From positions 434,001-498,000 of the forward strand of contig NZ_SOBT01000008.1 in NCBI RefSeq assembly GCF_004364935.1: a stretch of DNA of 64,000 nt. The letters run 5' to 3'. Both the position numbers and the translations under genes were made by a program. The first letter of the stretch is position 1, and the number at the start of each line of letters is the position of its first letter. Source of the stretch: Panacagrimonas perspica. Lineage in GTDB: Bacteria > Pseudomonadota > Gammaproteobacteria > Nevskiales > Nevskiaceae. This document shows positions 50,595 through 59,280 of this stretch, piece after piece. Under the pieces are notes generated by a model that searched no databases, was not told the DNA's origin, and saw only the letters and a program-made list of their open reading frames with translations.

Positions 50595-50648
50595 TGACAC
50601 GATGTGTCGAAAACTGGAACTAGGGCTGAAACGGTCGGGGCGTAGCCT
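50595..50648 (+). promoter_or_regulatory. Regulated promoter P1 of the (N/Q)GP repeat gene
   Basis: The palindrome TGACAC-GAT-GTGTCG (50595-50609) starts 48 bp upstream of a TAGCCT box (50643-50648), the likely -10. No good -35 exists, as expected if an activator is needed. The 54 bases from palindrome to box match P2 (52084-52137) at 34 positions without gaps (counted by eye), and further identity continues to GAAGG. Confidence 0.65.
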
Positions 50649-50696
50649 GATTTCCATCGAAGGACGCCTCCTTCGCCCCGATACAGGAGTCTCGCC

Positions 50697-51017
50697 ATGA
50701 AAACCTTCAAGTCCTTCGCTCTGTCTGCCTGCACTGCCGCGTCCACACTGATGTTCGTCGCCCTGTCGACGCCGACGCAGGCCTGGGCGATCCAGCGCAA
50801 CGGTCCTGTCTTCAACGGTCCTGTCCTCAACGGGCCGATCGTCCAGGGCCCCGTCGTCCAGGGTCCGGTGCTCCAGGGTCCGGTCATTCAGGGCCCGGTC
50901 CTGCAAGGGCCGATCGTTCAGGGTCCGTTGCTGCAGGGCCCGACGGCCAGGGGCGCACACCTGGGCAAGTTCGTCGCCGTGACCTTGCCGGGCGGCGAGA
51001 GGATCCCGGTGCACTGA
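50697..51017 (+). CDS. Secreted (N/Q)GP pentapeptide-repeat protein
   Basis: The 106-residue protein has a signal peptide cut near residue 31 (QAWA). Ten consecutive five-residue repeats of the form (N/Q)-G-P-[VILT]-[VILFA] follow, from NGPVF to QGPTA (residues ~35-84). A short C-terminal tail (LGKFVAVTLPGGERIPVH) ends the protein. The five-residue period with regularly spaced aliphatic residues suggests a pentapeptide-type beta-helix or an extended rod, exported to the periplasm or outside. I know no function. AGGAG lies 7 nt upstream of ATG. A strong terminator follows, and the gene next to it encodes an ADYC lipoprotein, a family in which QG-type repeats also occur. Confidence 0.82.
   Translation: MKTFKSFALSACTAASTLMFVALSTPTQAWAIQRNGPVFNGPVLNGPIVQGPVVQGPVLQGPVIQGPVLQGPIVQGPLLQGPTARGAHLGKFVAVTLPGGERIPVH
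50799..50948 (+). repeat. Ten tandem 15-bp coding repeats
   Basis: Ten in-frame 15-bp units encode the (N/Q)GP pentapeptides. The first three begin with AAC and the rest with CAG or CAA. Units vary at third codon positions, so they are kept by protein selection more than by recent DNA duplication. Confidence 0.88.
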
Positions 51018-51055
51018 TCGTCGCCCCTTCCGATTTCCCCGCTTCTCCTCCTCAG

Positions 51056-51086
51056 GCCCGCCGGTGATCCGGCGGGCTTTTTCTTT
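51056..51086 (+). terminator. Rho-independent terminator of the (N/Q)GP gene
   Basis: GCCCGCCGG-TGAT-CCGGCGGGC forms a perfect nine-base stem followed by TTTTTCTTT. It separates the repeat-protein gene from the ADYC lipoprotein gene, which therefore needs its own promoter. Confidence 0.9.
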
Positions 51087-52083: not shown

Positions 52084-52137
52084 TGACACCGTATGTCGCT
52101 GCACTGGCATCGGCCTGATACGGGCGGCGCCTAGTCT
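52084..52137 (+). promoter_or_regulatory. Regulated promoter P2 of the secreted beta-rich protein gene
   Basis: The palindrome TGACAC-CGT-ATGTCG (52084-52098) is 48 bp upstream of TAGTCT (52132-52137), the same geometry as P1. The matching bases between the two continue past the box to CGAAGG. The coding regions are unrelated, so the similarity reflects shared control. Confidence 0.65.
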
Positions 52138-52184
52138 GGTTTCAACGAAGGCACATCGCTTTCGACCCGACTGGAGCAGCCCCG

Positions 52185-53327
52185 ATGAACGTTTCCACTT
52201 CCTTCCGCCGCACCGCCTTTGCCGTCGCCGCACTGGCGTCTTTCGCGTTCGGTCCGTCCGCATCGGCCGAAGGCTTTTCTGGCGGCGTGTTCGTCGCGGC
52301 TGGCGACGTCGACGGTGATGGCGCCTACCGCGGCGGCGTGAAGATCGCCGTCAGCGACGTGAACTACATCGGCCGCGACGGCAACTGGTTCAACCCTTCC
52401 AACTGGAGCAGCGGCCGCGTGCCGGGCGCTGGCGACAACGTGATCCTCGACGGCAACGACTACGTGCTGATCGATGGCGGTGCCGATCCGTCGGCGACGC
52501 GCGTGTCGTTCGGCGATCTGGTCGTCAGCAGCGTCGCGGTCCTGGAAGTGCGCAACGGCGCCATCGTGCAGACGCGCAGCCAGGTGCTGAAGGACGACGG
52601 CCAGATCATCTTCCGCGCCTCGGGCGACGTCGGCGAGAGCCTGATCGTCGACCGCTCGTGCACCGACTGCGTGCTCGTGCAGAACCCGAACCAGAAGAGC
52701 AAGCGCATCGTCGTGCTGCAGAGCAGCGTGACGACCGACATGGGCCTGGGCGGCACCGAGCCGGCGACGCTGACGCGCGACGCCAGCGGCCAGATGCAGC
52801 TCGCCGCGGGTCGCGGCCATTACTCGACGCTGACCGTCGACACCGCGGTGATCGACGGCGATCTCAAGCTGTCGACCTACTACGGCTTCAGCCCGATGCC
52901 GGGCGACCAGTACCAGATCATCACCGTCAACGGCCGTCGCACCGGCGAGTTCATCGGCGTCCCGGAAGGCGGTTACGTGGGCTGCACCGAGAACCATGTC
53001 GGCCTGCGCCTGAGCTATGAAGGCGGCGATGGCAACGACATCGTGATCTCGGCCGAGCAGACTGATCCCGCGACCTGCCTGCTGCTGCCGGCGGTGCAGA
53101 AGGTTCGCGAGGCCGCGGCGCGCCTGAACGTGCAGGCCCGCATCGACAAGCTGCCGCTGGCGGCCGCGGTGGAACAGGGCGTGGCGCAGACGCGCGAGCA
53201 CATCCTGCTGGCCAGGCAGATCGGCGTGCCCTCGGCCACCGATGGCGCCGCCGAAACGGCGAAGGGCACGACCAAGCTGCCGTCGCCGACGACGCCGATC
53301 TCGGGCCCCAAGCCGCCGAAGAAGTAA
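52185..53327 (+). CDS. Secreted beta-rich protein of unknown function
   Basis: The 380-residue protein has a signal peptide cut near residue 28 (ASA). Next come an acidic Ca-binding-like loop (AAGDVDGDGAY) and WFNPSNWSSGRVPGAGDNVI, which resembles the start of G8-like or beta-helix domains in extracellular proteins. A beta-rich middle ends with GDQYQIITVNGRRTGEFIGV and GDGNDIVISAE, the closing strand pattern of many autotransporter-like repeat proteins. A charged helical tail (EAAARLNVQARIDKLPLAAAV) and a Pro/Lys end follow. No anchor is present, so it is probably secreted or periplasmic. GGAGCAG lies 7 nt upstream of ATG. Controlled by P2. Confidence 0.75.
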   Translation: MNVSTSFRRTAFAVAALASFAFGPSASAEGFSGGVFVAAGDVDGDGAYRGGVKIAVSDVNYIGRDGNWFNPSNWSSGRVPGAGDNVILDGNDYVLIDGGADPSATRVSFGDLVVSSVAVLEVRNGAIVQTRSQVLKDDGQIIFRASGDVGESLIVDRSCTDCVLVQNPNQKSKRIVVLQSSVTTDMGLGGTEPATLTRDASGQMQLAAGRGHYSTLTVDTAVIDGDLKLSTYYGFSPMPGDQYQIITVNGRRTGEFIGVPEGGYVGCTENHVGLRLSYEGGDGNDIVISAEQTDPATCLLLPAVQKVREAAARLNVQARIDKLPLAAAVEQGVAQTREHILLARQIGVPSATDGAAETAKGTTKLPSPTTPISGPKPPKK

Positions 53328-53425: not shown

Positions 53426-53504
53426 GCAAAGGCACGGCCGGGATTCCAGTCCCGATGCGTGCGTCCCACAGTCCCAGCCGGTGTTTCCGGCAGAGCCCGC
53501 CGAC

Positions 53505-56500
53505 ATGAACGATGCGCCCAAGCCTGCTGTGCCCCGCGATCTGAGCCGCCTGCGCGACGGCCATTTCGACGGGGCCGCGCAGGAACGGCTGATGACCGAC
53601 CTGGCCGAATCGCTGCCGGGCGCGGTGTTCCAGCTCGAGTCGGACGACAAGAACAACCTTCGCTACAACTTCGTGTCCGGTCGCGCGCGCGAGGTGCTCG
53701 GCGTCGAGCCGCAGGCCATCCTCGACGATCCGCTGCTGCCGTCGAAGCTGGTGATCGCGAAGGACTCCTCGGTGCTGTTCAACGCGTACCGTGATTCCGC
53801 TCGCGGCATCCGCCCGGTGAGCGCCGACGTGCGCATCCTGCGTCCCGACGGCCAGCAGCGCTGGATCCGCACGTTCGCCACCTGCCGCAAGGCCGGCGGC
53901 AACGTGATGTGGAACGGCTACTGGAACGACGTCACGGACGAAGTCGAGGCGCGCGAGAAGCTGGAGCGCTCCGAGGCGCGGCTGCGTGCCATCGTCGACA
54001 CGGTGCCCGGCGTGCTGTTCCAGCTGCGTCGCGACGCCGACGGCAGCATCGGCATCAACTATCTGTCGCACGGCAGCGAGGAGATGTCGGGCATCCCGCA
54101 CGAGGAATTGCGCCGCGATTTCGGTGCCTTCCTGCGCGCGGTGCACGAGGAGGACCGCCCGCAGATCGCGGAGGCGCTCGAGCGCTCGGTGTCGGAGATG
54201 AAGGTCAAGGAGCACACCGTGCGCGTGAATCACCGCGACGGCAGCCTGCACTGGATCACGAACATCGTGTCGCCGCGCCGCAACGAGGATGGACAGGTGC
54301 TGTGGGACGGCATCACCGTCGACATCACCGCGCACAAGCGGACCGAGGAAGCACTTGTGCATGCCGAGACCCGCATGCGGGAGATCGTAGGCTCGGCGCC
54401 GGGTGCGGTGTACCAGGTGGTCATCGGCGCCGACGGCGTGCTGCGATTGCCGTACGTCAGCGAAGGGTTGATCGATCTGGTCGGCATCGCCAAGGCGGAC
54501 GCCGAAGCGGACGTAGGCTGCCTGTTCGCCCAGGTGCAGACCCTGGACCTGCCGCGCCTGCAGCGTGCGATCGTCGCGACGGCGCAGCAGCGCGAGACGC
54601 TCAGCTTCGACTTCCAGTTCCGTCATGCGCTCAGCGGAGAACTGCGCTGGCTGCGGTCGCGCGCGACCGCCGTGCGAGGGGCAGGCGGCGAGGTGGTGTG
54701 CAACGGCTTCTGGCAGGACATCACCGACTTCAAGACGCTGGAAGCGGAGCTGCGCGACGCGCGCGACGCCGCGCAGGTGGCCGAACGCCGCGTGCGTGAC
54801 ATCACCGACAGCCTGCCGGGTGTCGTGTTCCAGATGGTCTATCCCGTCGACGGCCCGGCGCGCGTTGCGCATGTCAGCGAGGGTATGCGCGAGCTGACCG
54901 GCATCGACCGCGATGCGGCGATGACCAACCTGTCGGTGCTGATCCAGAACGTGGTGCCCGAGGACCGCGCACACGTGATCGCCGAAACGGCGCGCATGGC
55001 GCGCGATGCCGGCACCTTGCGCATCGAGTTCCGCCTGCGCCACACGCTGACCGGCGAGATTCGCTGGCTGCTCGCGCGCTCCGCCGGGCGCCGCATGGAG
55101 GACGGCAGCGTCGTCTCCAACGGCTTCTGGCAGGACATCACCGAGATCAAGACGCTGGAGGCCGAGCTGCGCGACGCGCGCGACGTGTCGCAGGCCAGTG
55201 CGGTGCAGTTGCGCGTGGTCACCGATTCGCTGCCGGGCATGGTCTACCAGTACAACGTGGCGCCCAATCTGGTGGGCACCTACACGATGGTCAGCGACCA
55301 GGGCCCCGAGATGTTCGGGCGCACGCGCGAGTGGATCACCGGCACGCCCAACAGCCTGCTGTATCTCGTGCTCAAGGAAGACCAGCCCAAGCTGATCGGC
55401 GCGTTCCTCGAGGCCGTGCGCAGCCGCGGCAACGTGGATTTCACCTACCGCTCGCAGCTGGCGGGCGATCGCATCGGCTGGCTGCGCACGCGCGCGCGTC
55501 CGATCCCGCAGGCCGACGGTGGCGTGGCCTGGAGCGGTTTCACGATGGAAGTCACCGCGGAGATCGAGGCGCGCCAGCAGCTCGAGGTGGTCGAGAAGCG
55601 GCTGCTCGAAGAAGCCAAGGCTGGCGAGCGGCGCGTGCGCGAGATCACCGAATCGTTGCCCGGGGTCGTCTACCGGATGGAGAACGTCGGTCGCAACACG
55701 ACGCGCTTCACCGACATGACGGACGCGGCGCACAAGTTGTATGGCTACACCCGCGAACAGATCATGGCCAATCCCGCGTTGATGAGCGACGGCGTGCACC
55801 CGGACGATCGTGTCGCGATGCGCGATGAGCTGATGTCCTCGGCGCGTGCGGGCCGCCAGGCGCAGATGAATTTTCGCTTCAACCGTCCCGACGGAACCTT
55901 CCGCTGGCTGCGCACCTACGCAGCGGCACAGTTGATCGACAACGGTGTGGCCTGGGTGGGCTACACGGCAGATGTCACCGCAGAGCGCGAGGCGCGTGAC
56001 CGCGCCGATGAGGCGATGCGTCAGCTGACGGTGGCGCGCGACGCCGCCGAAAGCGCGCAGCAACGCATGAGGGCGATCTTCGATCACACCAAGATCGGCC
56101 TGGTGATGATCGACGCGAACAAGAATTTCTCCGACGCCAACCCTTCGCTGCGCGAGCTGCTGGAGATCGCGGACGAGGAACAATTCGCGCGCGAATTTCC
56201 GAAGTTCTCGCCGCCGACCCAGCCGGATGGCCGCGATTCGATGGAGAAGGCGGCCGAGGTCATCGGCGTCGCATTCGAGCGCGGCTACAACCGCTTCGAC
56301 TGGATGCACCAGACGTATTCCGGTGAGCCGCGACCCTGCGAGATCGCGCTGACGCGCGTGGAGCTGGGCGGCAAGCCCACGATCTTCGCGACGATGACCG
56401 ACATGCGCGAGCGCCTGCGCTACGAAACGCAGCTCATGCGGGCCTCGGAGGAAGCGCGATCGGCCTCGCAGGCCAAGAGCGAGTTCCTCGCCAACATGAG

Positions 56501-58484
56501 CCACGAGATCCGCACGCCGATGAACGCGATCGTCGGGCTCACGCACCTGGGCTTGTCGAGCACCGATCCGACGCGCCTGCGCGACTACCTCGGCAAGATC
56601 GACACCGCGGCCAAGTCGCTGCTGCAGATCATCAACGACATTCTCGATTTCTCGAAGATCGAGGCGGGCAAGCTGTCCCTCGAATCGACGCCGTTCGACC
56701 TGTATTCGGTGCTCGACAATCTCTCCGGCATGCTGAACCTGCGCGCGGCGGAGAAAGGGATCGAACTGCTGTTCGCGGTCGAGCCCGGCATCAGCGCACA
56801 GCTCATGGGCGATCCGCTGCGCCTGGGGCAGATCCTGCTGAACCTGACCGGCAACGCGGTCAAGTTCACCGACAAGGGCCAGATCGTCGTGCGGGTGAAG
56901 ACGACGAAGAAGGGCAAGGACTTCGTTCGGCTGCGCTTCGAAGTGACCGACACCGGCATCGGCCTGTCCGCAGAACAGATCTCGCGGCTCTTTGAATCCT
57001 TCTCGCAGGCCGACACCTCGACCACGCGCCGTTACGGCGGCACGGGTCTGGGCCTGGCCATCTCGCAGCGCCTGGTGGACCTGATGGACGGCGAGATCGC
57101 GGTCGACAGCGTGCAGGGCAAGGGCAGCACTTTTCACTTCACGGCGCGGTTCGGTCTTGCGCCCGAGACCGCCAAGCGCACGCCCACGCCCAAATCGATG
57201 CGCGGCATGCGCGTGCTCGTGGTGGATGACAACAGCACCGCGCAGTCGATCCTGCAGGCCTACCTGGAGTCCTTCGGCTTCGTCGTGGAGACCGTCAGCG
57301 ACGGACAACGCGCGGTCGAGGCCATCCGCAATGCCGGCCCGCAGGCTTTCCGGCTGGTGCTGATGGACTGGCAGATGCCGGGCATGAACGGCATCGAGGC
57401 GGCGCGGCGGATTCGCGAGCTGTCCAGCCCCGAGCCCTCGGTGATCATCATGGTGACCGCGTTCGGCCGCGAGGAAGTCGAGCACCAGGCGCTGTCGGCC
57501 GGTCTCGACGGTTTCCTGATCAAGCCGGTGAATCCTTCCGTTCTGCTCGACACCATTCTCGATGCGTTCGGCAGGGAGGCTGCGCTGGAAGCGGGACCGG
57601 TGTCGTCGGCGATCGCGCCGACGGTGTCGCTCGAAGGCCTGCACGTGCTGCTCGTGGAGGACAACGAGATCAACCAGGAAGTCGCGATGGAGCTGCTCAA
57701 GCGCGCGGGCATCACGGTGGATCTGGCGAAGAACGGACGCGAGGCGGTGGACCTGGCGTCCGCCAAGGATTACGACGCCGTGTTGATGGACGTGCAGATG
57801 CCGATCATGGATGGGCTCGAGGCTACGCGGCGCATCCGTCGCCTGGAGTCGCTGCGCGCCACGGTCCCGATCATCGCGATGACCGCCAACGCGATGGCCG
57901 AGGACCGGCAGCGTTGCATCGAGGCCGGCATGAACGATCACGTCGGCAAGCCGGTGGACGTGAGCCGGCTGCACAAGGTGCTGGCGCAGTGGACGCGCGG
58001 TGCTGCGCGTAGCCCGGACGTTGAATTGCGCGAAGCCAAAGAGCGGGAGCTTCTACCTCGGCAGGAAGCCTTCCCGGACTTCGTCCGGGTTACGGTTCCG
58101 CCAACCTTGCCCGGCGGTCAGGCTGGGCCCGACGCCAGGTCTGCGCCGGAAGAACCGGATTTCGACTTTCCGCTCGCGGTCCGCCAGATGGGCGACAGCG
58201 TGGCGCTGTGGGAGAAGCTGGCGCGGCGCTACGGGGCATCGGCTTCACCGGCCGCGCAGATCATGCAATCGCTGGCGGCCTCGGATCGTGAATCCGCGCG
58301 TCGCAACGCGCATACGCTCAAGGGCGTCGCGGCGACGCTCGGGCTTCTGGCGCTCAAGCGCGCTGCGGCCGAAGTGGAACGCGCGCTGGCCGCCGGCTCC
58401 GGCGTGGCGATGCCCGACCTCGAGGAACTGACCCGCGCGGACGAGACAGCGCGCCGGGTGATCGGTCAGCATCTGTCGAAATGA
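53505..58484 (+). CDS. Cytoplasmic multi-PAS hybrid histidine kinase (7 PAS, HisKA, HATPase, 2 REC, Hpt)
   Basis: ATG 53505 (a GTG at 53481 is also in frame) gives 1659 residues without signal peptide or transmembrane helix. About seven PAS/PAC units occupy residues ~30-985; several end in a W-D-x-T-like PAC strand (NGFWQDIT, WNDVT, VGYTADVT). The dimerisation domain has FLANMSHEIRTPMNAI with His 1000, and the ATPase domain has LTGNAVKFTD and GGTGLGLAIS. Two receiver domains follow, with Asp 1288 in LMDWQMPGMNG and Asp 1429 in LMDVQMPIMDG. The Hpt domain has His 1603 in ARRNAHTLKGVAATLG. A phosphorelay to the response regulator at 58513 is likely. Residues ~1502-1530, between REC2 and Hpt, are encoded by a REP doublet. 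Confidence 0.93.
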   Translation: MNDAPKPAVPRDLSRLRDGHFDGAAQERLMTDLAESLPGAVFQLESDDKNNLRYNFVSGRAREVLGVEPQAILDDPLLPSKLVIAKDSSVLFNAYRDSARGIRPVSADVRILRPDGQQRWIRTFATCRKAGGNVMWNGYWNDVTDEVEAREKLERSEARLRAIVDTVPGVLFQLRRDADGSIGINYLSHGSEEMSGIPHEELRRDFGAFLRAVHEEDRPQIAEALERSVSEMKVKEHTVRVNHRDGSLHWITNIVSPRRNEDGQVLWDGITVDITAHKRTEEALVHAETRMREIVGSAPGAVYQVVIGADGVLRLPYVSEGLIDLVGIAKADAEADVGCLFAQVQTLDLPRLQRAIVATAQQRETLSFDFQFRHALSGELRWLRSRATAVRGAGGEVVCNGFWQDITDFKTLEAELRDARDAAQVAERRVRDITDSLPGVVFQMVYPVDGPARVAHVSEGMRELTGIDRDAAMTNLSVLIQNVVPEDRAHVIAETARMARDAGTLRIEFRLRHTLTGEIRWLLARSAGRRMEDGSVVSNGFWQDITEIKTLEAELRDARDVSQASAVQLRVVTDSLPGMVYQYNVAPNLVGTYTMVSDQGPEMFGRTREWITGTPNSLLYLVLKEDQPKLIGAFLEAVRSRGNVDFTYRSQLAGDRIGWLRTRARPIPQADGGVAWSGFTMEVTAEIEARQQLEVVEKRLLEEAKAGERRVREITESLPGVVYRMENVGRNTTRFTDMTDAAHKLYGYTREQIMANPALMSDGVHPDDRVAMRDELMSSARAGRQAQMNFRFNRPDGTFRWLRTYAAAQLIDNGVAWVGYTADVTAEREARDRADEAMRQLTVARDAAESAQQRMRAIFDHTKIGLVMIDANKNFSDANPSLRELLEIADEEQFAREFPKFSPPTQPDGRDSMEKAAEVIGVAFERGYNRFDWMHQTYSGEPRPCEIALTRVELGGKPTIFATMTDMRERLRYETQLMRASEEARSASQAKSEFLANMSHEIRTPMNAIVGLTHLGLSSTDPTRLRDYLGKIDTAAKSLLQIINDILDFSKIEAGKLSLESTPFDLYSVLDNLSGMLNLRAAEKGIELLFAVEPGISAQLMGDPLRLGQILLNLTGNAVKFTDKGQIVVRVKTTKKGKDFVRLRFEVTDTGIGLSAEQISRLFESFSQADTSTTRRYGGTGLGLAISQRLVDLMDGEIAVDSVQGKGSTFHFTARFGLAPETAKRTPTPKSMRGMRVLVVDDNSTAQSILQAYLESFGFVVETVSDGQRAVEAIRNAGPQAFRLVLMDWQMPGMNGIEAARRIRELSSPEPSVIIMVTAFGREEVEHQALSAGLDGFLIKPVNPSVLLDTILDAFGREAALEAGPVSSAIAPTVSLEGLHVLLVEDNEINQEVAMELLKRAGITVDLAKNGREAVDLASAKDYDAVLMDVQMPIMDGLEATRRIRRLESLRATVPIIAMTANAMAEDRQRCIEAGMNDHVGKPVDVSRLHKVLAQWTRGAARSPDVELREAKERELLPRQEAFPDFVRVTVPPTLPGGQAGPDARSAPEEPDFDFPLAVRQMGDSVALWEKLARRYGASASPAAQIMQSLAASDRESARRNAHTLKGVAATLGLLALKRAAAEVERALAAGSGVAMPDLEELTRADETARRVIGQHLSK
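58009..58093. repeat. REP doublet (BIME-like) copy 8, inside the kinase gene
   Basis: GTAG-CCCGGACG at the left (decayed hairpin) and an intact right half CCCGGACTTCGTCCGGGTTAC, 85 bp, lie in frame within the hybrid kinase CDS. The GTAG is read as part of GCG-CGT-AGC, so it gives no stop in this frame. It encodes the linker between REC2 and Hpt. Confidence 0.8.
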
Positions 58485-58512: not shown

Positions 58513-59280
58513 GTGAAATCCCGTATTGCGGTGGTGGACGACGACGAGATGATCCGCGAGGTCGTCGTCGAGTATCTGACCGGCCAGGGTTTCGACGTCC
58601 TCAGCCTCGACGGCGGTCCAGCGCTGCGTGCCGCTTTCGCCACCACCCCGCCGGACTGCGTGATCCTGGATCTGGTGATGCCGGGCGAAGATGGCCTGAG
58701 CGTGCTGCGCTGGATCCGCAACGGGTCGGCCGACCTTCCGGTGATCATGCTGACCAGCGCGGATGGCACCGCCGACCGGGTCGTGGGGCTGGAACTGGGC
58801 GCCGACGATTACGTCTCGAAACCGGCCGATCTGCGCGAACTGCTGGCGCGCGTGCGCAGCGTCCTGCGCCGGCGCACCGGCGCCGCGTCACCGCCGCCGA
58901 TGGCGCAGCCGGTTCCGCTGGTCGAGCAACGCAAGTCCGCCGGGCCGGGCGAGGCCTGGTTCGGTCGCTGGCGGCTCGATCGTGCGCGGAGGCGCCTGGT
59001 GGATTCGGCCGGCGAGGTGCTGCCGGTGACCGGAGCGGAGTTCGGCCTGCTGTGCGTGTTCGCGGATCACCCGAGCGTGGTGCTGTCGCGCGACAAGCTG
59101 CTGGAGCTTTCGGGCACGGATCCCGGGGAAGTGTTCGATCGCGCCATCGACCTGCGGATCACGCGTCTGCGGCGCAAGATCGAGCCGGTTCCCGGGGATC
59201 CGACGGTGATTCGCACGATTCGCGGGCATGGCGGCGGCTACGAGTACCTGCCTTCGGATGGACCCAACTACGGGCGCTGA
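58513..59280 (+). CDS. OmpR-family response regulator
   Basis: GTG 58513 has CGGAG 7 nt upstream and lies 28 bp after the kinase stop. The 255-residue protein has a receiver domain (residues ~4-115: acidic pocket VVDDDEM, phospho-acceptor Asp 53 in VILDLVMPGEDG, Thr in MLTSADG, Lys in DYVSKPADLREL). A 35-residue linker and an OmpR winged helix follow (LPVTGAEFGLLCVFADH, DRAIDLRITRLRRKIE, TIRGHGGGYEYLP). It is the natural partner of the hybrid kinase, and a candidate for binding the TGACA palindromes of P1, P2 and P3 (inference). Confidence 0.94.
   Translation: MKSRIAVVDDDEMIREVVVEYLTGQGFDVLSLDGGPALRAAFATTPPDCVILDLVMPGEDGLSVLRWIRNGSADLPVIMLTSADGTADRVVGLELGADDYVSKPADLRELLARVRSVLRRRTGAASPPPMAQPVPLVEQRKSAGPGEAWFGRWRLDRARRRLVDSAGEVLPVTGAEFGLLCVFADHPSVVLSRDKLLELSGTDPGEVFDRAIDLRITRLRRKIEPVPGDPTVIRTIRGHGGGYEYLPSDGPNYGR

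Follow-up and report, generated by a model that had tools for sequence, protein, structure and literature searches.

A period-five repeat protein of Panacagrimonas perspica, the predicted exported companion of an ADYC-domain protein

The question raised by the short gene at positions 50697..51017 (forward strand) of the window, the 64,000-nucleotide stretch of Panacagrimonas perspica DNA analyzed here, is what kind of protein is built almost entirely from five-residue units and with which other proteins it is likely to function. The product, P0001, consists of 106 amino acids and is predicted to be exported, the signal peptide being judged by eye from its charged start, hydrophobic core and AxA site rather than by a predictor. 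The signal-peptide-like start is followed by an array of ten 15-bp units encoding (N/Q)GPxx (50799..50948, forward strand), an eleventh, degenerate unit, RGAHL (50949..50963, forward strand), and a C-terminal end that contains the motif AVTLP. The array is real rather than a product of chance. The coordinates and the units themselves, in order NGPVF, NGPVL, NGPIV, QGPVV, QGPVL, QGPVI, QGPVL, QGPIV, QGPLL and QGPTA, agree with the description given in an earlier note on this DNA, namely, ten five-residue units with G-P at fixed positions, and the mature protein contains 11 consecutive glycines at period five, a run that none of 200,000 residue shuffles reached (the shuffle maximum is 7). The further statement of that note that the two remaining residues are mostly aliphatic is loosely true: it applies to most of the units, but the first ends in VF and the last in TA. 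In all six frames of the window, the only [NQ]G triples of period five are those of this array.

The array is also a tandem repeat at the DNA level, and the copy number differs between relatives (10 units in P0001, 14 in a same-genus relative), as would be the case if a 15-bp repeat had expanded neutrally in a gene without a selected function. This explanation, which we consider extremely improbable, is contradicted by the glycine and proline codons, which vary silently between the units of P0001 (pS of 0.69 for Gly and 0.51 for Pro) and never in the encoded amino acid (pN 0.00), indicating that the period is maintained at the protein level; furthermore, distant homologues retain the period, and the location of the repeat 5' of an ADYC gene, described below, is fixed.

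The 5.4-Mb genome encodes seven period-five repeat genes, which we denote R1 (P0001) to R7, and a distant eighth candidate (C1:351460, E 0.006) the end of which reads IAITMP. In the alignment of the seven paralogues, the AVTLP motif (50976-50990, forward strand, in P0001) is invariant. Among 19 Nevskiales proteins comprising 189 units, the first position of the unit is N (0.76) or Q (0.24), the second is Gly (1.00 by definition of the unit count), the third is mostly hydrophobic (Pro 0.22), the fourth is variable, and the fifth is again mostly hydrophobic (Leu 0.50). The same frame is common to eight alphaproteobacterial proteins (53 units) and to 14 of the 17 proteins in which the repeat is fused to an ADYC domain (65 units). 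The prospect that homologues might lose the five-residue period, which would have undermined the interpretation in the earlier note, has thus not materialized: the period is retained in the paralogues, in distant homologues, and in the Nevskiales, alphaproteobacterial and fused proteins. The G-P core, by contrast, appears to be a local variant, being absent from most of the six other paralogues and present in only 8 of the 19 Nevskiales proteins (41 of the 189 units). Four of these 19 proteins, those of L014, L064, L066 (the first) and L067, carry a pair of cysteines close to the mature N-terminus.

Pentapeptide repeats, which are also mentioned in other systems in passages of PMC7159879, are the obvious family for comparison. 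P0001 consists of exact five-residue tandem units, as do the proteins of the PF00805 clan, but lacks the A(D/N)LXX consensus recognized by Pfam, and no Pfam Pentapeptide model matches it up to E 1; the sole Pfam match up to that value, Extensin_1 (PF02095), scores 20.5 bits where the cut-off demands 105, so that P0001 does not qualify for that family either. The fused repeat-ADYC protein of Archangium, however, matches PF00805 (E 1.4e-8, 34.5 bits, cut-off 20.2), with units ANLNG / SDLNG, in which NG occupies the final two positions of A(D/N)LXX. Given that these units pass the Pfam cut-off, the unit looks like the classic pentapeptide in a shifted register that ends in N/Q-G, and the proposal that the G-P core is distinct in kind from A(D/N)LXX is not supported by the comparison with these canonical units, or by the scarcity of G-P. 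Other repeat proteins match pentapeptide models below the respective cut-offs, among them the standalone protein L066 of Hydrocarboniphaga (Pentapeptide_3, E 1.7e-5). With a profile built from the seven paralogues, six PDB sequences come up (E 0.017-0.81); none is significant alone, and several are known pentapeptide proteins.

Because its relatives match pentapeptide models whereas P0001 itself matches none up to E 1, we read P0001 as a divergent, ADYC-associated relative of the pentapeptide repeats and not as an established member; judging from the sequence comparisons, the unit most likely descends from a pentapeptide repeat in the form hydrophobic-x-Leu-Asn/Gln-Gly. It shares with the pentapeptide proteins (PF00805, PF13576, PF13599) the period of five and this register, which overlays A(D/N)LXX. 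Unlike the classic unit, it has Pro in place of Ala and mostly Val in place of Asp/Asn, and unlike these families, P0001 appears to be exported and is paired with an ADYC protein. P0001 would illustrate the extent to which a pentapeptide-like repeat may diverge with its period intact.

Structure prediction, suggested in the earlier note as a test of the repeat, did not yield a regular fold, which counts against the interpretation given there: AlphaFold2 gives the P0001 repeat, where a protein of the PF00805 clan would have a right-handed four-sided beta-helix, block pLDDT values of 41-51 from a 16-row alignment, which is thin enough to make the missing fold weak evidence. The C-terminal end is predicted to form a hairpin (50976..51008, forward strand; strands at residues 94-96 and 102-104, block pLDDT 78-79) that encompasses the AVTLP motif. 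For the Archangium fusion, AlphaFold2 is confident in the ADYC part (blocks 70-97) and in the strand directly after the repeat (88), with no fold in the repeat itself (32-52). A Foldseek search with the fused model produced no match with an E value of 0.001 or lower, and comparison of the ADYC domain with solved structures gave nothing convincing (best VIA-align Z 3.5; best E 0.19 for a sequence profile against the PDB). By eye, the AVTLP end resembles the post-repeat strand of the fused proteins (VGQPVAVTLP / LGQPLVSVSF); homology of the two was not borne out, as a 13-column profile of this end, derived from 15 of the 19 standalone proteins (the remaining four deviated from the pattern), found its best site elsewhere in each of 15 of the 17 fused proteins (p 0.08-0.97).

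The lack of a predicted fold, together with Extensin_1 as the only Pfam match and the variable number of units, could also be taken to mean that the repeat has no defined structure and serves as a Gly/Pro-rich spacer or as a matrix peptide that behaves like elastin or extensin, without a beta-helix, in which only the length and the C-terminal anchor matter. We regard this as possible but doubtful: quite apart from the thin alignment, 11 of the 19 Nevskiales proteins lack G-P units altogether, positions three and five are mainly hydrophobic, unlike in spacers, and the Archangium units are canonical pentapeptide repeats.

Downstream of P0001 lies the gene for P0002 (51158..52054, forward strand), which is a clear member of the ADYC family (PF20032, 148 bits, cut-off 27) with a lipobox-like start seen by eye; P0001 itself has no ADYC domain. 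A terminator-like stem-loop between the two genes (51054..51079, forward strand) is a weak candidate because chance alone would give 1.1 such structures and a single one is present. To our reading, the adjacency is part of a general pattern. A scan with an ADYC alignment yielded 51 loci (544,238 bases), which include near relatives and hence are not independent cases. In 39 of the 51, a strict triple, [NQ]Gxxx[NQ]Gxxx[NQ]G, is located 880 to 90 bases 5' of the ADYC match on the same strand, and no strict triple occurs anywhere else in these 544,238 bases (both strands, six frames). In 17 of the paired loci (17/51 overall) the repeat and the ADYC domain share one open frame, and in 22 they do not, so that the conjecture of the earlier note, that the repeat accompanies the ADYC protein, holds for both the separate and the fused arrangement. 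Among the 12 loci without a strict triple, L083 and L085 include just 208 and 35 bases of 5' DNA, four (L078, L086, L090 and L113) have a looser repeat 5' of ADYC, L094 has a longer unit, and L074 a possible remnant; L069, L088, L091 and L095 show no period-five repeat by the strict or the loose pattern, the latter having been applied to 10 loci, with one match elsewhere. Nevskiales and Alphaproteobacteria as a rule have separate genes, which are found also in Leptolyngbya and at the two Nannocystis loci. The fused loci are myxobacterial by label except for L112 (labelled Deltaproteobacteria) and L103 (labelled Comamonas); by eye, the latter locus resembles those of Myxococcus, including the kinase in front, and the record possibly represents a mislabelled genome.

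The co-occurrence extends to whole genomes. Among 61 related genomes, ADYC is present in four, the same four that encode AVTLP-type repeats (1.9e-6 under the assumption of independent genomes, which these 61 are not). The repeat profile has matches at E up to 0.001 in eight of the genomes compared; those in G027, G038, G047 and G060 were judged to be false, from 240 bases of the best match per genome (fewer for G038) and a second match in G038, as they lack an AVTLP-like end and the genomes lack ADYC. The only one of the four that looks exported is the G047 protein (L039, from about 1500), lipoprotein-like with NGMS-type repeats that probably are independent low-complexity sequence. P0001 combines the features by which we define an ADYC-associated NG-repeat group here: [NQ]G at period five, an export signal (by eye), an AVTLP-like C-terminus and an adjoining ADYC gene. 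The pairing is not one to one in this genome, which has three ADYC genes and seven repeat genes: five of the seven paralogues do not adjoin ADYC, and the third ADYC gene (L019) has no strict triple within the 11 kb read. The ADYC domain occurs here in several bacterial phyla, and the one literature collection searched returned no paper for 'ADYC domain' or 'PF20032'; the role of ADYC becomes testable through its recurrent partner, the existence of fusions and the small set of genes that share a promoter in a single genome.

The shared promoter, recognized from the sequence, consists in the window of TGACA 48 bp before the hexamer TAGCCT (50643-50648), with spaced elements between them (50595..50649, forward strand); a second copy (52084..52138, forward strand) precedes the gene at 52185-53327, which encodes P0003. 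The pattern TGACA-N43-TAGNCTG is found at five places in the 5.4-Mb genome, four of which precede R1, R2, R3 and P0003, and its reversed control at none. The fifth match, C1:388357, is taken as chance because it lies inside an open reading frame. The layout is common to the upstream regions of R1, R2, R3, R5 and the 52185 gene and to their counterparts in relatives: TGACA stands 48 bp before a -10-like hexamer in 9 of 13 upstream regions, R5 and its relative have spacings of 46 and 57, and two regions have one-base variants at 48 (by eye). A fourteenth region, that of L067, contains no hexamer by pattern. The layout differs in the other paralogues, where GTTGGAA-like elements are separated by about 11 bases (by eye).

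Soon after the promoter hexamer of P0001, a stem-loop of 7 pairs with a 4-base loop is predicted (50658..50675, forward strand; z -2.89). Stem-loops with z < -1.5 are present in 14 of 21 upstream regions (9/13 and 5/8 in the two groups), three of which belong to neighbouring genes, compared with 6% of 122 control genes, the segments in the former being anchored after loops seen by eye and those in the controls at a fixed distance from the start codon. The stem-loops of the two promoter groups differ in sequence and are similar in position. Such a stem-loop could stabilize the mRNA.

The gene order in the window, repeat, ADYC, P0003, hybrid kinase and OmpR-type response regulator, places the pair beside signalling genes. 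P0003 (52185..53327, forward strand) is an exported protein under the same type of promoter, and homologues are encoded near the repeat in L055 and L063. The hybrid histidine kinase (53481..58484, forward strand) contains PAS domains, HisKA, HATPase, two receivers and Hpt, and lacks a clear membrane span (its 19-residue hydropathy peaks at 1.49); the response regulator (58513..59280, forward strand) combines a receiver with Trans_reg_C. Signalling proteins are encoded no more than 1 kb from ADYC in 27 of the 51 loci, of which 14 have members of the histidine-kinase/regulator cluster and 13 have Ser-Thr-kinase/nSTAND1 types; most of these neighbours were assigned by BLAST cluster, Pfam having been run on those named individually, and the distances for L067 and a few others are from listed coordinates. 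The count over the same distance was zero in the other 24 loci, some of which are incomplete. A hybrid kinase and a regulator also adjoin R4, R5 and R7. In nine Reyranella-type loci, which share synteny and are not independent, the regulator lies 3' of ADYC, at 8-62 bases in eight and at 352 in L071, and the kinase 5' on the opposite strand. Two Nevskiaceae genomes (G004 and G020) encode winged-helix/Ser-Thr kinase/TPR proteins. In Myxococcota, a Ser-Thr kinase, nSTAND1 and FGE-sulfatase are joined in one protein directly 5' of the fused ADYC (L099, 1752-5564; L106, 1723-5535); L097 and L112 show only the nSTAND1 and FGE parts because these loci are cut, and L093 has a kinase and TPR. A literature search on nSTAND1/formylglycine-generating/Ser-Thr kinase proteins of Myxococcus found no paper. 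Outside the signalling genes, R6 adjoins a TonB-dependent receptor, and in two genomes the repeat gene adjoins a gene for a fatty-acid-hydroxylase family protein (L015, 6317-7327; L054, 7948-8916).

These neighbours bring to mind YjbI of Caulobacter, which, according to PMC12864828, is a pentapeptide protein that is secreted and keeps two stress pathways silent, and the expression of which responds to activated UzcR. P0001 resembles YjbI, as far as described there, in its apparent export, its period of five and the connection of its gene to two-component systems. By analogy, the exported repeat could be a surface sentinel that restrains an envelope-stress kinase and is restored by the kinase-activated regulator, a scheme into which the adjoining kinases, the common promoter and the TonB-dependent receptor beside R6 would fit. 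We nevertheless consider this improbable. Four Nevskiales kinases of this genome lack a clear membrane span (their 19-residue hydropathy peaks at 1.06-1.65, by a crude measure that gives the P0001 signal peptide 1.58 and was applied to the Nevskiales kinases only), which makes direct contact with an exported protein unlikely; moreover, the two conserved cysteine pairs that flank the repeat of YjbI in that account have no counterpart in mature P0001, which contains no cysteine. P0001 also differs from YjbI in its consensus and in having an ADYC partner.

Several features are demonstrable at the sequence level: the repeat is paired with ADYC and in some proteins fused to it, the paralogues form a family in which the C-terminal motif is conserved, a promoter is common to several of the genes, and signalling genes are frequently nearby. 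These features are best accommodated if P0001 represents the exported, repeat-bearing half of an envelope module with two parts, an NG-repeat and an ADYC protein, an interpretation to which we assign a probability of roughly 0.6. Under this scheme, the kinase/response-regulator pair would switch on the repeat genes, with the regulator presumably binding at the promoter sites, and the 5' stem-loop would help to produce the repeat protein in quantity. The exported repeat would then join ADYC in the envelope via the C-terminal hairpin and act there as a structural, possibly stacking, element, with Pro occupying, in P0001, the first hydrophobic place of the pentapeptide-derived unit. The most likely role of such a module would be to reshape or shield the envelope in answer to a signal sensed by the kinase. 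A broader proposal, which we put forward tentatively and at somewhat below even odds, is that NG-repeat and ADYC proteins constitute a previously undescribed two-part envelope module that is wired in each lineage to its own signalling protein, namely, the hybrid histidine kinase and OmpR-type regulator in Nevskiales and the Reyranella group, the winged-helix/Ser-Thr kinase/TPR protein in the two Nevskiaceae genomes and the Ser-Thr kinase/nSTAND1/FGE-sulfatase protein in Myxococcota, and in which the repeat docks on ADYC in trans where the two are split and in cis where they are fused.

A minor observation concerns P0003, in which residues 326-350 form a short stretch that matches EF-Tu models (E 8e-4) and comes right after a LLPAVQKVREAAAR stretch; the L055 homologue retains the latter and lacks the EF-Tu-like part.
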